From: Candidatus Harpocratesius repetitus
Lineage (GTDB): Archaea > Asgardarchaeota > Lokiarchaeia > Sigyniarchaeales > Promethearchaeaceae
Length of the DNA: 64,000 nucleotides
Direction: 5' to 3'
Assembly (NCBI GenBank): GCA_021498095.1
Contig: JAIZWK010000001.1
Location: 1,971,666-2,035,665 of the forward strand
A program made the position numbers and the translations under genes. Below, piece after piece: positions 56,521 to 62,229 of this stretch (position 1 is the stretch's first letter; each line of letters begins with the position of its first letter). The notes under the pieces were generated by a model, which saw nothing but the letters and a program-made list of their open reading frames with translations, was not told the origin of the DNA and searched no databases.

Positions 56521-57672
56521 TTAGATTCTGTTTTTATATTTCCAAATTCCAAAAATAATTAAAGATACTGCAATAACACATCCTGCAACAATTCCAACGA
56601 TTGCCCAAGGATTAGTTGATAATTGCCAAATCTCTTCATTCATCACAGCATTTTTGGAAGAACTGAAAGCATCAGAATCAAACGTTAAGATAACTTTCAC
56701 TGCATAATACGATAATTTAGCAGATGAAATTGCATCTGAACTATCTACATTTACATCGGCAAATCCATAATCAACTGGATTCTGTCGGGATAAAACCCAA
56801 GTAAATGTTTCATCATGTAATGGTTGATCCAAAATGGTTAAAGTATTTACTGCATAATAAGTCAACATTAAAGAACTTTGCACAATACCTGATTGAATGC
56901 CATAACCTCCGTAATGTTTTCCAGCACTCTGATCTCCAAAGTAATAACTTTCAATATACGTTGTTATTCCATCAATCTGGCTCGAATTTAACTGGCTTAA
57001 TAAATTCAATTCGTTTAATATTGCAACTGCATAATAAGTATCAATTAACGATGCTTCTGCTCCTGGTGCGGATGCGAAAGCCAATTCTTCTGAATTCCAA
57101 GCACTTAAAACAAATGCTGCAATATCTGTCGGAGAAGTTTCATTAATTTTACCGAAGGATGTGAGTAATTTAACCGCAAAGAAGGTATCTGATAAGGTAG
57201 GCATTTTTGCACTTATACTCGCAAAGCCAGAATTGGTTTCATTTTGTAAATCGAATAGTTTTGTGGTTGCATCTTCAATTAATGTGGTGGTAAAATTAGT
57301 ATCAACCAGTAATCCTGCAAAATATGCATAATAAACTTGTGAAATAATTCCTACTCCTACATCTGAGAATTGTAAATAACGATCGCGTAAATAACTTCGA
57401 ATAATACCTTGATCGTTTAGATTGTTTAATTCAGGATCAATTTGCGATAAAATGAATAAATTTGCATAGGTGGTAAATTCTGAAAGGGTCGCTTCGTTAT
57501 CCCCATTTCCGGAGGGTGAATCAAGAAATGCCCCTGAAGAATGCTGATTACTGAGGCAAAATTGTTCCAGTAATTCTTTCCGTGAAGTTGCTACAGCGTA
57601 TTGTGCGGATAGAATCAGAGAGAACATAAATGTTATTGATATTAATATCGTTAATTGGTGACGACGTTTCAT
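56521..57672 (-). CDS. Surface-anchored prenyltransferase/cyclase-fold repeat protein
   Basis: 383 residues: signal peptide (LTILISITFMFSLILSAQYAVA), then alpha-alpha toroid repeats of the prenyltransferase / squalene-cyclase kind (GFASISAKMPTLSDTFFAVKLL, GGYGIQSGIVQSSLMLTYYAVNTL, YGFADVNVDSSDAISSAKLSYYAVKVI), then a C-terminal membrane helix (WAIVGIVAGCVIAVSLIIFGI) with KYKNRI as stop. The catalytic DxDD of cyclases is not seen, so it is probably a binding scaffold outside the cell. Family level assignment only. Confidence 0.78.
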   Translation of the reverse strand: MKRRHQLTILISITFMFSLILSAQYAVATSRKELLEQFCLSNQHSSGAFLDSPSGNGDNEATLSEFTTYANLFILSQIDPELNNLNDQGIIRSYLRDRYLQFSDVGVGIISQVYYAYFAGLLVDTNFTTTLIEDATTKLFDLQNETNSGFASISAKMPTLSDTFFAVKLLTSFGKINETSPTDIAAFVLSAWNSEELAFASAPGAEASLIDTYYAVAILNELNLLSQLNSSQIDGITTYIESYYFGDQSAGKHYGGYGIQSGIVQSSLMLTYYAVNTLTILDQPLHDETFTWVLSRQNPVDYGFADVNVDSSDAISSAKLSYYAVKVILTFDSDAFSSSKNAVMNEEIWQLSTNPWAIVGIVAGCVIAVSLIIFGIWKYKNRI

Positions 57673-57768
57673 TTTTCCGAAACCTAACTTTTAATTCTAG
57701 ATTTGTGCCTTAAAATCAACGATTGATTTTAAAAAGTGTGGTATTAACCATTTAAAATGAAGAAAAGA

Positions 57769-57784
57769 ACCTCCTAATGGAGGT
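57769..57784 (-). terminator. Hairpin after the actin-related gene
   Basis: Palindromic ACCTCC-TAAT-GGAGGT, a six-pair stem with a four-base loop about ten bases after the actin-gene stop. Read on the minus strand it is followed by TCTTTTCTTC. It looks like an intrinsic terminator; the GGAGGT could also mimic a ribosome site. Confidence 0.5.
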
Positions 57785-57793
57785 GTGGAGGGG

Positions 57794-59452
57794 TTATTTT
57801 GTAAATACTTTGCTGAAATCAACGATACAAGAATTTGGATTTTCAGTAAAGGTTTGATAAGAAATCATGAATTTTCTGAATGAAGGAAGCGCTCCTAAAA
57901 TTGCTGCTCCTCGATAAGCCGCGTAAATTCTACTTGGAGGAAGAATTACATTAACAATAAGTTCATCTTTATGTTTTTCTTCAAATTCTTCGTCTAATTG
58001 AATTATCTCTTCTAATTCTTCACTATCATATTCGGATTCTATTGAACTTGTTATTTCTGCAAATTCGTTATTATCAACGTCTGTTTTTTTAAGTAATCGC
58101 TTTTCTTTTCGATCAATTTTTTCTTCAATAATAATCGGATCTAATTTTTCACCACATTTATTACAGAAAGAAGATTCTCCATCTAATATTTTGCCACAAT
58201 AAGGACATTTTGTAGGATAATGTTGCTTTGCAGCTCCTATTATATCAATTTGAGGAACTAAGGTTTGTTTAAGATCAGCGCCACAAAACGGACAGAACTC
58301 GCTTTCTTCGAAATTTACTATTTCTCCACATTTTGGACAATTCCCTTCCTTTAAAGAACTTTTACCATCGAGTTGAACCATTTTTTGCTTTTCTTCAAAA
58401 AGTGGTATATTTTCTTTTTCTTGTTTAGATTTAGATTCATCTTTAGGTATTCGTGCTTTTAAGGTCTCTAAAGATGCTTTAATCTCTTGGATTAATCGTT
58501 CCTTAAACCCTGTGATTAATGAAGTTCCTCCAGTTAGGACTATATTTTGAAGAAGTGGTTTAATATAATGTGGATTTACTAGTAATAATGAGTTAATTAC
58601 TGCCTGAGCAATACTTTCTGTCTGAGGAGTAATTAGTTCAGGATGAAATAAGACTTCTGCTGCATTGATAATAATATTTTCATATATATGAAGTGTTTCT
58701 CCATCTGGAAGCATGTAATCTACTGCATTGACCGGATCTTGAGATGCGCTTATTGGATCAAGACTGATTCGTAAACACTTCTCTTTAATATCTTTAAGTA
58801 TTTCTCGTTTTTGAAAAATTCCATATTGTGTAAGTAATTGATTAAGGTATTCTTCAATATCAGATCCTGCAATATTTAATCTACGAATACTTGGTGAATA
58901 TAATTGAGCATCCATAACTGGTGTGATTGAAGAAATTCCTGTGCCGATCTCAACAGATAACCCTGTAGTAAGTCCGATTGAGAATACGGCTGTTGTTGCA
59001 GAGTCAATTATCGCAACTTTATTAAATCTATGTGTTTCAAATAAAAGACGGGCAAAATATTGTGCAATATCTGGAGGAGTTAGTGGTGGAACGATATACA
59101 CAACATTATATTGAGAAGGATCTTCTATTCTAAGAATATTATAGAATATATGATTTAAAATTGCATAATAGTGATCCCAATTTGTAACATTTCCACGGTG
59201 AATTGGGTAATCAAGTTTTAATACACCACGCATCCTGATGGTATCATCACCGACATAAATTTCTTGCGACTGAGTTCCTGCCATTTGGCGATATTTAGGT
59301 GTTCCAACAACAGTTGGAAAGACCGCTCTGGGTCTATCTTCACCCACAAATCCAACCTTGGTGAACCCTTCTCCTATATCCATGATTATTGTGTATTCAT
59401 TGTAACTCAATATATTACCACCGAAAGTTGATTTCTTCCCCTTTATTATCAT
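57794..59452 (-). CDS. Actin-related protein with two inserted zinc ribbons
   Basis: 552 residues. Actin's front half is clear: GEGFTKVGFVGEDRPRAVFP (phosphate loop and D-loop area), YVGDDTIRMRGVLKLDYPI, GNVTNWDHY, and LTGGTSLITGFKERL. The end RIYAAYRGAAILGALPSF matches actin's last subdomain. Between about residues 335 and 497 an insertion holds two zinc ribbons (C372, C375, C387, C390; C416, C419, C430, C433) and an acidic linker. By eye, actin's Q137 and H161 are Ser here and D154 is Glu, so hydrolysis may be slow or absent. It is probably an Arp-like cytoskeletal or regulatory protein. Its gene stands alone with a hairpin terminator. Confidence 0.93.
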   Translation of the reverse strand: MIIKGKKSTFGGNILSYNEYTIIMDIGEGFTKVGFVGEDRPRAVFPTVVGTPKYRQMAGTQSQEIYVGDDTIRMRGVLKLDYPIHRGNVTNWDHYYAILNHIFYNILRIEDPSQYNVVYIVPPLTPPDIAQYFARLLFETHRFNKVAIIDSATTAVFSIGLTTGLSVEIGTGISSITPVMDAQLYSPSIRRLNIAGSDIEEYLNQLLTQYGIFQKREILKDIKEKCLRISLDPISASQDPVNAVDYMLPDGETLHIYENIIINAAEVLFHPELITPQTESIAQAVINSLLLVNPHYIKPLLQNIVLTGGTSLITGFKERLIQEIKASLETLKARIPKDESKSKQEKENIPLFEEKQKMVQLDGKSSLKEGNCPKCGEIVNFEESEFCPFCGADLKQTLVPQIDIIGAAKQHYPTKCPYCGKILDGESSFCNKCGEKLDPIIIEEKIDRKEKRLLKKTDVDNNEFAEITSSIESEYDSEELEEIIQLDEEFEEKHKDELIVNVILPPSRIYAAYRGAAILGALPSFRKFMISYQTFTENPNSCIVDFSKVFTK

Positions 59453-59532
59453 ATATTTGGATTATTTTTCTATTAATTCTTTCGTAAGAATTTAATCATT
59501 CCTTTTTTTTTAAGTGGAATCTTGATTTTTAT

Positions 59533-59937
59533 TTATTCAAATATTTTCTTTTTCGAGAATTCTTTCATCTTTTCTGATTCATGTATTAAAAAATTATCAA
59601 CATCCTTAGAAATAATCTCATACAAATGTAGTAAATATTTCCCCCATTCAGTTAATTCAACCATGCCTCCTCCTCCTGCCCCTCCTTTTTTCGTAATGAC
59701 AACTTTTTTTCCTGTTTTTTTCGAGATTTTCCGTAATTTATCCCATCCGTATTTATAAGAATAGTTTAAAGATTTTGTTGCTTGGGTGAGATTTTGTGTG
59801 CGCTTTAACTCAGAGAGTAATTTGATATCGCCCTTTCCTATAGTAAAATCTCCTTCACCTTGAATCCAAAATTTGAGGTGGAGAGAAAAGTTTCCAAGAG
59901 GAGATGAAAATTCCTTTTTTTTAATCTCACTTTCCAT
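59533..59937 (-). CDS. ModE-like winged-helix DNA-binding protein
   Basis: 134 residues matching the N-terminal DNA-binding domain of the molybdate regulator ModE: LLSELKRTQNLTQATKSLNYSYKYGWDKL, then KKGGAGGGGMVELTEWGKYLL. No TOBE molybdate-binding domain follows, so it may be a stand-alone regulator with another signal. An amphipathic N-terminal strand (LGNFSLHLKFWIQGEGDFTIG) opens it. It lies upstream of the actin gene on the same strand, 80 bases before it. Target genes unknown. Confidence 0.87.
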   Translation of the reverse strand: MESEIKKKEFSSPLGNFSLHLKFWIQGEGDFTIGKGDIKLLSELKRTQNLTQATKSLNYSYKYGWDKLRKISKKTGKKVVITKKGGAGGGGMVELTEWGKYLLHLYEIISKDVDNFLIHESEKMKEFSKKKIFE

Positions 59938-60010
59938 AAAAAGATCTCAGTGAAGTATCTTAAAAATTAGCTTGTTCTAATAGTGAGTAAAAAGAAGAAA
60001 AAAATAGATA

Positions 60011-60709
60011 TTAGTTTAAGAAATCTGAAAGCATTATTCTGTTTTGAGAAATAAATTTTGATCCAAATCCTTGAATCTCTTCAATTTTATTCGGCTCGTC
60101 GATTATTGTGCGAATAATCGTATAAGGGGAATCGAAAATTTCAAGCAATTTTTCTGCTTTCTTCTTTCCACAATTCAGCAATCCTTGGATAAAATTGATT
60201 TGAGCATCTGCTAAATATACATTCTTTCCTGAAATTCGGGAAATTGTTGGTGGTTTATCAGATATTTGTTCCCTATGTGCAATTCGTAGCAGAATTTCAA
60301 TTGAATCTTCAATTTTTCTTGAAGGAATAAAAGTTGGTAGTATGTCTGAAGATCGATTTACTTCAAAAAAAAGCAGAAAAAGTAAATTTTGGAATTTTTC
60401 ATTCGTAGAATCGCCCCATCTTTGAAAATTTTCTGCAATGATTATACCCATTGGATGTTGATATAAAAATTGCTTAATGTATTTCAAGAGATTATCGATT
60501 TTTTTAGGACGCAAATCATTGCTATTTAATAAGAATACTGCACCATTTGGTGGAATTAGAAAAATTTTTTCAGAAATTGTACTAAAAGAAACGCTGACGC
60601 CAAGATTACGCAAAATTTGAACTATTTTTTGCTGTGATTGAGTAAGAGAAGTTCCAATTTGTATACGATATTGAGAATATTCACTAGATGGATTATGAGA
60701 AAACGGCAT
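60011..60709 (-). CDS. Nuclease-dead XPF-family paralogue (ERCC1-like)
   Basis: 232 residues in the XPF layout: an N-terminal nuclease-like domain and a C-terminal tandem helix-hairpin-helix (INFIQGLLNCGKKKAEKLLEIF and IQGFGSKFISQNRIML). FIQGL and the hairpin regions match those of the neighbouring XPF. The nuclease motif is gone: where XPF has GDY...ERKxxxD, this has FLIPPNGAVFLLNSND. So it likely cannot cut, like ERCC1, and may heterodimerise with the neighbour. The two genes are divergent, 78 bases apart. ERCC1-type partners are known mainly in eukaryotes. The pairing is inference. Confidence 0.75.
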   Translation of the reverse strand: MPFSHNPSSEYSQYRIQIGTSLTQSQQKIVQILRNLGVSVSFSTISEKIFLIPPNGAVFLLNSNDLRPKKIDNLLKYIKQFLYQHPMGIIIAENFQRWGDSTNEKFQNLLFLLFFEVNRSSDILPTFIPSRKIEDSIEILLRIAHREQISDKPPTISRISGKNVYLADAQINFIQGLLNCGKKKAEKLLEIFDSPYTIIRTIIDEPNKIEEIQGFGSKFISQNRIMLSDFLN

Positions 60710-60787
60710 TGGTTATATTTAACTAAGCTTTTATAGGAAAAAATATTCTCTTTTCTAACTTTAAAGAATATTGGAGAAAATCATTTT

Positions 60788-61522
60788 ATGGGAATTAAAA
60801 TCATTATGGATGAGCGTGAAAGGGGTGAAATTCGATCCCAAATGCAATCTTTGCCTATAGATCTTGAAATTCAGACTTTAGATTTCGGTGATTATATTAT
60901 TTCATCCCGTTGTGCAATTGAACGAAAGCGTGGTGATGATTTTGTATCCAGTATTTTTGATCAACGCCTCTTTTTACAGCTCGAGAAATTGAAAAATGCA
61001 TATCCGCATCCTATTATGATTTTAGAAAACCCTAAGCGTTTATTTGAGCGGAAATTTGTCAATCCAAAGGCAATTTATGGCGCTTTAATTTATGTAAGCA
61101 CTAGACTTCAAATTCCTGTGATTCCCACAAAAGATGAAGTTCACACTGCAAACATTCTTTTTCAACTTGCTAAAAAGGAGCAAGAAAATGAGACATTTGG
61201 AGATGATATATTCGTTCCACAGATTTTTACTGATGGGATTGTTTCTCGAGGGGATCAAGAGTATTTTATTCAAGGTTTAGTTGATGTGGGAATTCAACGA
61301 GCTAATCAATTTCTCGATTTTTTTCAAACACCTGAACACATTCTATACGCGTTTGAATTAACAAATGTATCTCGCACAAAATCAGGAAAACCCAAAGGAA
61401 TTTCTGGAGTTTTAGGTTCCATTTCTGGAATTGGACCGAAATTAGTCGAAAGAAATAAGATCTTATTACATTATTCTTATAAACAAGCAAAAAAAGAAAA
61501 GCGTAAAACAAAAATTATTTAA
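60788..61522 (+). CDS. xpf: XPF-family 3'-flap structure-specific nuclease
   Basis: 244 residues, the short helicase-less archaeal form. The nuclease motif GDX(n)ERKx3D is intact (GD at 34-35, ERK at 45-47, D51), after DERERGE and before FDQRLFLQLEKL. A tandem helix-hairpin-helix follows (FIQGLVDVGIQRANQFLDFF, SISGIGPKLVERNKILL). It cuts branched DNA near double-to-single-strand junctions. The C-terminus is basic with no clear PCNA motif. It sits divergently next to a dead paralogue, a potential partner. The start has GGAGAAAATC upstream. Confidence 0.92.
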   Translation: MGIKIIMDERERGEIRSQMQSLPIDLEIQTLDFGDYIISSRCAIERKRGDDFVSSIFDQRLFLQLEKLKNAYPHPIMILENPKRLFERKFVNPKAIYGALIYVSTRLQIPVIPTKDEVHTANILFQLAKKEQENETFGDDIFVPQIFTDGIVSRGDQEYFIQGLVDVGIQRANQFLDFFQTPEHILYAFELTNVSRTKSGKPKGISGVLGSISGIGPKLVERNKILLHYSYKQAKKEKRKTKII

Positions 61523-61587
61523 TAAGTGATAAACGAGAAAAATCGCTATCAAATAATTTTTATTGGATATTTTATTGAAATGTTAAA

Positions 61588-62229
61588 ATGATGAAATTAA
61601 TGGCAGTAAAAAAGATAATAACACCTATTATTACTGTAATTGCAATTATTGCTTTATTTCTTGTCTTACCAGGTGATATCCCTTGGTTTTCATATCAATC
61701 ACAGAATGAAATTTGGTTAATAAAGCTTATATCGCATCCCTGGGGATGGTTGATTGGTTCATTTTTTGTCTTTCTCTTGTTTACTGAAATATTGACACAT
61801 TATAATCAAAAATATAGATTTGTGGATGTAACTAAAAGTTCATTTTTAACAGCTGTTGTAGAACGCGATTTTTTTGGATTGCTAATTCAATTTCCAAGTA
61901 TTATTTTATTTGAAGAAATTCTTTTTAGAGGAATCTTATTAGTAGAGTTAAATTTAATATTTAATGGAATTGGATGCATTTTAATCAGTTCATCCATTTT
62001 TAGCATATATCACTTGCATATTTATTTTTCTTCAAGACAATGGGGAATAACTTTTTTGTATATAATCTTGAGTTTTATTTTAGGAATAGTATTAGCTACC
62101 TTCTTTCCTTTTATTGGTATTATCGGTACTTGGATTTATCACCTAATTGCAGTTAGTGCCATTTACTTTCGTTGGTACTTGATAGAAAGGAAAAATATGG
62201 CCAATAAAGAAGAAAAAGAAGAAGAATAA
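61588..62229 (+). CDS. CPBP-family intramembrane protease
   Basis: 213 residues with about six membrane helices. The family's EExxxR (FEEILFRG, residue ~110) and FxxxH (SIFSIYHLH) motifs are present: the Rce1/CAAX-protease type. A charged C-tail (MANKEEKEEE) ends it. Rce1-like enzymes remove terminal peptides from prenylated proteins; other members process bacteriocins or are of unknown use. The start could be codon 1 or 2. Stands 66 bases after XPF. Confidence 0.85.
   Translation: MMKLMAVKKIITPIITVIAIIALFLVLPGDIPWFSYQSQNEIWLIKLISHPWGWLIGSFFVFLLFTEILTHYNQKYRFVDVTKSSFLTAVVERDFFGLLIQFPSIILFEEILFRGILLVELNLIFNGIGCILISSSIFSIYHLHIYFSSRQWGITFLYIILSFILGIVLATFFPFIGIIGTWIYHLIAVSAIYFRWYLIERKNMANKEEKEEE

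Follow-up and report, generated by a model that had tools for sequence, protein, structure and literature searches.

Eukaryotic XPF-family complexes join a catalytic to a non-catalytic subunit, or two non-catalytic subunits, and FANCM carries a helicase. In the available text of two open-access articles, XPF-family proteins are described as homodimers in archaea and as heterodimers in eukaryotes (PMC6320978, PMC3905867). As far as the accessible parts of the sources go, the short XPF of Aeropyrum pernix (2bgw/2bhn) is a homodimer of one active protein, and FANCM-FAAP24 consists of non-catalytic ERCC4-fold subunits with tandem helix-hairpin-helix (HhH) domains, the nuclease domain of FANCM being inactive. 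How a homodimer split into a heterodimer is an old question, and no archaeal intermediate was found in the accessible parts of the open-access literature; likewise, no archaeal XPF partner described as nuclease-dead was found there (including PMC6320978, PMC3905867, PMC7776575, and PMC12993045). Here we analyse a stretch of 64,000 nucleotides (the window) from Candidatus Harpocratesius repetitus that contains two head-to-head genes, one encoding a short XPF with an intact nuclease motif (A) and the other an XPF paralogue without it (D1). The sequences lead us to lean, with some reserve, towards A and D1 being the two subunits of one heterodimeric flap or branch endonuclease.

A divergent pair of XPF-family genes

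A and D1 lie in a single-contig genome of 4.36 Mb (G000). The sequence-only reading of the window had described a plus-strand gene with an intact GDX(n)ERKx3D motif and, 78 bases away, a minus-strand neighbour that keeps FIQGL and the tandem HhH and has lost the motif. This description holds, as A carries GD (residues 34-35), ERKRGDD (45-51), and DERE (8-11), FIQGL occurs in both A and D1, and the two-gene observation is confirmed well beyond chance. The features of the locus, in positions of the window, are as follows.

60011..60709, minus strand: D1, nuclease-dead XPF paralogue, 232 amino acids (ERCC4-fold domain at about residues 14-150, a linker, and tandem HhH at about 164-231)
60017..60220, minus strand: tandem HhH of D1, residues 164-231, including FIQGLLNCG; five helices in this range in the D1 model
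60515..60535, minus strand: former ERKXXXD site of D1, residues 59-65, now reading FLLNSND
60710..60787: intergenic region of 78 bases separating the divergent start codons of A and D1
60788..61522, plus strand: A, short XPF with intact nuclease motif, 244 amino acids
60809..60820, plus strand: DxRE motif of A, reading DERE, residues 8-11
60887..60940, plus strand: GDX9ERKX3D motif of A, residues 34-51
61247..61474, plus strand: tandem HhH of A, about residues 154-229
61364..61405, plus strand: predicted strand pair of A, residues 193-206, between the two HhH motifs (before the second), at RTKSGKPKG, the TKTGNPKG-type stretch of Lokiarchaeal short XPFs

A scored 98.5 bits against Pfam ERCC4 and matched the Pyrococcus Hef nuclease (E 4.1e-27) and A. 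pernix XPF (about E 1e-13). With complete DxRE and GDXnERKX3D motifs and a tandem HhH, it is predicted to be a catalytic XPF. D1 matched the NCBIfam Arch_Xpf model over residues 24-208 (E 2.8e-6) and the Hef model over residues 126-212 (E 3e-8), in both cases far under the curated cut-off. No ERCC4 match to D1 was found in Pfam, where the sole line was PF19963 at chance level (E 0.09); this match, together with matches to a peroxiredoxin and a staphylococcal inhibitor, was dropped as chance. BLASTP aligned A with D1 at 27% identity over 161 columns (E 1e-8), and aligning the D1-family profile with that of the short XPFs gave a probability of 99.9 and an E-value of 4.9e-36 over 216 columns. The protein collection contained 11 D1 homologues, a near-copy of the window's D1 counted in, and along the whole length of D1 a protein from Candidatus Harpocratesius sp. 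matches it at 93% identity. The family profile also matched the HhH of Hef (1x2i, E 2.4e-4), and Pfam HHH_5 was found in 13 of 15 D1-family rows at E<=1, the window's own D1 not being among the 13. The structural model of D1 is XPF-like (predicted local distance difference test, 83.5); its top structural match is FANCM, tied with Hef and XPF, and ERCC1 also aligns. An ERCC4-type nuclease fold followed by a C-terminal tandem HhH places D1 in the XPF/MUS81 family.

The catalytic motifs themselves are gone. The window's D1 lacks DxRE, GD, and ERK, retaining just the final D and an E close to it, which sets it apart from catalytic XPFs. In the 15-row alignment of the D1 family (alignment A3, from which the open reading frame (ORF) of genome G001 was omitted, P0006 apparently being the same protein), E, R, or K occurs at the ERK columns in none of the 13 rows with letters there; the site is absent from P0010, and P0011 begins inside it.

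Mean identities, computed with D1_P0011, S_G084, and S_G086 dropped and the A2 and A3 copies left out, differ between the two halves of these proteins. Among D1 proteins the mean is 0.32 in the nuclease domain and 0.57 in the linker and HhH part, and between D1 and the other short XPFs (S) it is 0.13 and 0.36, respectively; D1 and Hef share 0.23 in the linker and HhH part. For A the values are 0.69 and 0.56 among A proteins and 0.40 and 0.33 between A and S, with 0.45 and 0.52 among S proteins. At the sequence level, the nuclease domain of D1 has lost similarity and its HhH part has kept more of it, and the nuclease domain of A is almost at the S level, its HhH part having drifted away from S. 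Pairwise ratios of nonsynonymous to synonymous substitution (dN/dS) among genomes G004, G006, and G007 were 0.17-0.29 for D1, 0.07-0.085 for A, and 0.09-0.13 for D2, a second dead paralogue described below. D1 is under purifying selection, and its frame is open in all five genomes that carry it, at 39-42% identity between the two genera concerned.

Distribution and origin of the dead copies

D1-grade matches were found in 5 of 97 genomes (>160 bits) and in 5 of 227 genomes of the Asgard phylum (>320 bits). In most of the 227 genomes at most 12 first-look candidates were scored, and the 222 in which no D1-grade match was found include many incomplete ones. With 5 of 227 genomes, Asgard-wide occurrence of the pair is not supported. 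The five belong to one family, G000 and G001 to genus g1 and G004, G006, and G007 to genus g4, and in each of them D1 lies head to head with an A-type XPF; the pair that the sequence-only reading proposed to look for in relatives is therefore present in two genera. The ATG codons of D1 and A are 55-78 bases apart in four genomes; in G001 the distance is 94-145 bases, according to which start is taken. Elsewhere in the same five genomes is D2, another XPF-like protein without ERK (L062, L065, L071, L075, and L077), and the ERCC4 matches of G000 and G001 are Hef and A only. The rest of the family (G002, G003, and G005, of genera g2 and g3) has one short XPF with ERKRGDD per genome, and no dead XPF copy was found in these three. 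Related genera thus hold both states, one short XPF (g2 and g3) versus active and dead copies (g1 and g4), and the transition is directly testable with recombinant proteins. The D2 of G000 (L062 4561-5217, in the G000:C1:2566833 region) has a shorter N-terminus than its G001 relative, and a D2-like remnant with several internal stop codons, probably a pseudogene, lies at G000:C1:1598665-1599087.

Phylogenetic trees were built from archaeal rows. A 58-row tree, comprising 12 D1 proteins, 23 rows from a larger set of other short XPFs, and 10 Hef parts among its rows, was made without P0001, P0002, P0006, and P0010, each of which is a near-copy, a fragment, or related to P0003. It united D1 and D2 in one group (support 100/99). 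Since long branches could be drawn together once the active site is lost, a tree of the linker and HhH part only was also built. In this tree the Lokiarchaeal short XPFs, including A, D1, and D2, separated from Hef (99/94), and D1 and D2 again fell together (98/98). Joining D1 and D2 with Hef was rejected by the approximately unbiased test (p-AU 0.03). A group of A, D1, and D2 was neither supported nor rejected (p-AU 0.283), nor was placing D1 and D2 with the S copies of the family (p-AU 0.087) or A with those S copies (p-AU 0.11) rejected. The TKTGNPKG stretch of Lokiarchaeal short XPFs is retained by D2 in three genomes. On these sequences, D1 and D2 are best read as local descendants of a Lokiarchaeal short XPF.

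A further short XPF without ERK and with an HhH domain, D3, was found in four of four genomes of Candidatus Borrarchaeum, an Asgard archaeon of another family; two of the four match loci of Candidatus Borrarchaeum weybense and B. yapensis, and the remaining two are assigned to the same genus. D3 has 234 amino acids, with the motif replaced by VSEDIGGFIKTFQEF. Its loci are as follows.

L124 3632-4333: D3
L183 8632-9333: D3
L184 8402-9073: D3
L185 6415-7107: D3
L186 27-728: D3

ERK is absent from all 15 aligned D3 proteins (alignment A4, the query plus 14 of 21 proteins). The best matches of the D3 profile were Hef and A. pernix XPF (E 1e-14 to 2e-11), with weaker ones to FANCM (about 3e-5) and to the HhH of ERCC1 (about 0.002). 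Three of the four genomes contain a Hef-sized ERCC4 frame, and three of the four a further short ERCC4 protein. D3 differs from D1 and D2 in its placement, as it branches with Hef and they branch with Lokiarchaeal short XPFs. In a 66-row tree with flagged long branches (S_G084 and D1_P0011 having been dropped for theirs, and seven D3 rows taken from the four genomes and 3 of the 21 proteins), a single origin of D1, D2, and D3 was rejected (p-AU 0.00024). Asgard archaea have therefore most likely evolved dead XPFs on two or more occasions.

A putative A:D1 heterodimer and its alternatives

The proposal that A and D1 form a heterodimer follows from the complementary divergence of their domains, the adjacency of their genes, and the replacement of S by A, D1, and D2. 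After a gene duplication, an ancestral XPF homodimer would have become an A:D1 heterodimer joined through the HhH domains, catalysis remaining with A and DNA binding with D1. The dead subunit D1 would hold and orient branched DNA, and A would cut it. This would be the division of labour of XPF-ERCC1, reached independently. As in XPF-ERCC1, one subunit has GDXnERKX3D (A) and one is a dead ERCC4-fold protein (D1), both with tandem HhH; D1 resembles ERCC1 in combining a non-catalytic ERCC4 fold with (HhH)2, and its model aligns with that protein. Unlike XPF, A has no helicase-like domain, D1 and D2 group with Lokiarchaeal short XPFs, and the heterodimer here is putative. The locus differs from the crenarchaeal short XPFs in having two diverged genes, one of them dead. 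With FANCM-FAAP24 it shares a non-catalytic ERCC4-fold protein with (HhH)2, but A is motif-intact. The earlier suggestion of a dead partner paralleling XPF-ERCC1 is thus reasonable as a functional parallel, a motif-less XPF-fold D1 being conserved beside a motif-intact A; the narrow distribution of D1 and its place among the Lokiarchaeal short XPFs argue against common descent with ERCC1.

Several observations weigh against the heterodimer. In the linker and HhH tree A falls outside the group of S, D1, and D2 (94/91), so that A and D1 are not sisters. The dN/dS of D1 is the highest of the three proteins, the predicted template modelling score of its model is moderate (0.67), and at the DxRE columns, where the alignment is loose, 5 of 11 D1 rows retain D and 3 of 11 retain E. 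The 66-row tree has flagged long branches. The adjacency of A and D1 is partly explained by their lying inside a larger conserved block, and is weaker evidence than it looks. Finally, D2 and the intact Hef offer alternative partnerships, and D2 may itself pair with A or with Hef.

The alternative that fares best, although we consider it unlikely, is that D1 (or D2) partners Hef in a FANCM-FAAP24-like helicase-nuclease complex and A stays a homodimer. G000 has a Hef-like ERCC4 frame of 864 amino acids that keeps ERK, FANCM shares the top of the structural matches of D1 with Hef and XPF, and in Borrarchaeum the dead XPF (four of four genomes) occurs alongside Hef (three of four). Against a Hef partner, D1 adjoins A in all five genomes, its linker and HhH part is nearer to short XPFs than to Hef (0.36 versus 0.23), a group of D1, D2, and Hef is rejected, and Hef-sized ERCC4 frames are so widespread in relatives that co-occurrence carries no signal.

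Rather improbable, and next in order, is that A is an ordinary homodimer and D1 a separate, non-nuclease DNA-binding HhH protein (a homodimer or D1:D2), their adjacency being a relic of a moved block. The block comprises six genes (56521-62229) common to g1 and g4, which encode a prenyltransferase-toroid protein, a zinc-ribbon actin, an HTH-like (helix-turn-helix-like, by eye) protein, D1, A, and an Rce1-like protein. OMPdecase-family and SPFH genes follow it in the window, G001, G006, and G007, with further genes between in G006 and G007, and the G004 contig ends before this position. The OMPdecase and SPFH genes also adjoin each other in G003, G013, G014, and G018, and no match to the six block genes was found beside them in these four genomes; in G014 the pair has an S-type XPF some 9 kb away. 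The dN/dS of D1 above that of A, and the position of A outside S, D1, and D2, also favour separate functions. On the other side, the identity of A to S is lower in the linker and HhH part than in the nuclease domain, the reverse of the order among S proteins, which fits a changed partner, and G002, G003, and G005, the family members lacking D1, each retain an S-type XPF, with no A seen in them.

A pseudogene reading, with D1 as the decaying copy of a duplicated XPF, is very improbable: its nuclease domain is strongly diverged and G000 holds the D2-like remnant with stops, but the D1 frame is open in five of five genomes, its dN/dS is low, and D1 proteins stay alike in the linker and HhH part. 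The least probable explanation is that eukaryotes inherited their ERCC1 from Asgard archaea, with D1 as its Asgard orthologue. D1-grade matches occur in 5 of 227 genomes, which belong to two genera of a single family; D1 falls with the Lokiarchaeal short XPFs, whose TKTGNPKG stretch D2 retains in three genomes; and in the PDB the D1-family profile (alignment A3) matched Hef and XPF of archaea, with no ERCC1 listed at E up to 10, an absence that is no proof. That search also listed neither of the eukaryotic complexes MUS81-EME1 and Zip2-Spo16. An ancestral ERCC1 pair at this locus is thus not supported; D1 and D2 lie within the Lokiarchaeal short-XPF group and are most likely a local counterpart of ERCC1 that arose by convergence, rather than its ancestor.

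For the broader form of the heterodimer proposal we see an even chance, namely that archaea evolved their own XPF-ERCC1-type enzyme, with a homodimer splitting in a Lokiarchaeal family and a Hef-type copy independently going dead in Borrarchaeum. If true, the step from homodimer to heterodimer would be a recurrent Asgard route, and living intermediates could be observed on either side of it. The Borrarchaeum case, as the second, suggests that this route is readily taken, and ERCC1 would then be one outcome among several.

Other XPF-like frames and neighbouring genes

In the fetched loci, 135 distinct ORFs matched the D1-family profile, 115 of them with a GD-ERK-type motif. The 20 without it are five D1, five D2, four D3, five pieces in which a contig end or break removes the site, and L133. 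The last (L133 4088-5185, G102:C202) encodes 366 amino acids with an ERCC4 match of 46.3 bits and an HhH; ERR replaces ERK, and the last D is changed. Its C-terminal stretch has a weak PDDEXK-type match (YhcG_C, 17.2 bits, under the cut-off), and L133 is possibly a degenerate-site XPF fused to another nuclease domain. In an A1 scan of the genome contigs no relatives came up.

Within the six-gene block, the product of the gene at 57794-59452 scored 246 bits against Pfam Actin and bears a double zinc ribbon; this actin-family protein is kept in the block in both genera.

At L072 558-6583 (G004:C276), an ERK-intact short XPF (A2) lies directly upstream of type I-E cas8e-cse2-cas7e-cas5e-cas6e genes and an array of 29-nucleotide repeats, in the expected position of cas3; the contig ends just past A2. 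No cas3 over the cut-off was found in the incomplete G004 genome, and an A-type XPF may stand in place of cas3 at this locus. A G007 contig that resembles type I-E on visual inspection carries a Cas3 match above the cut-off, with no XPF seen. At L080 4346-5973, an A2-like fragment adjoins a reverse-transcriptase-like ORF that by eye has the look of a group II intron.
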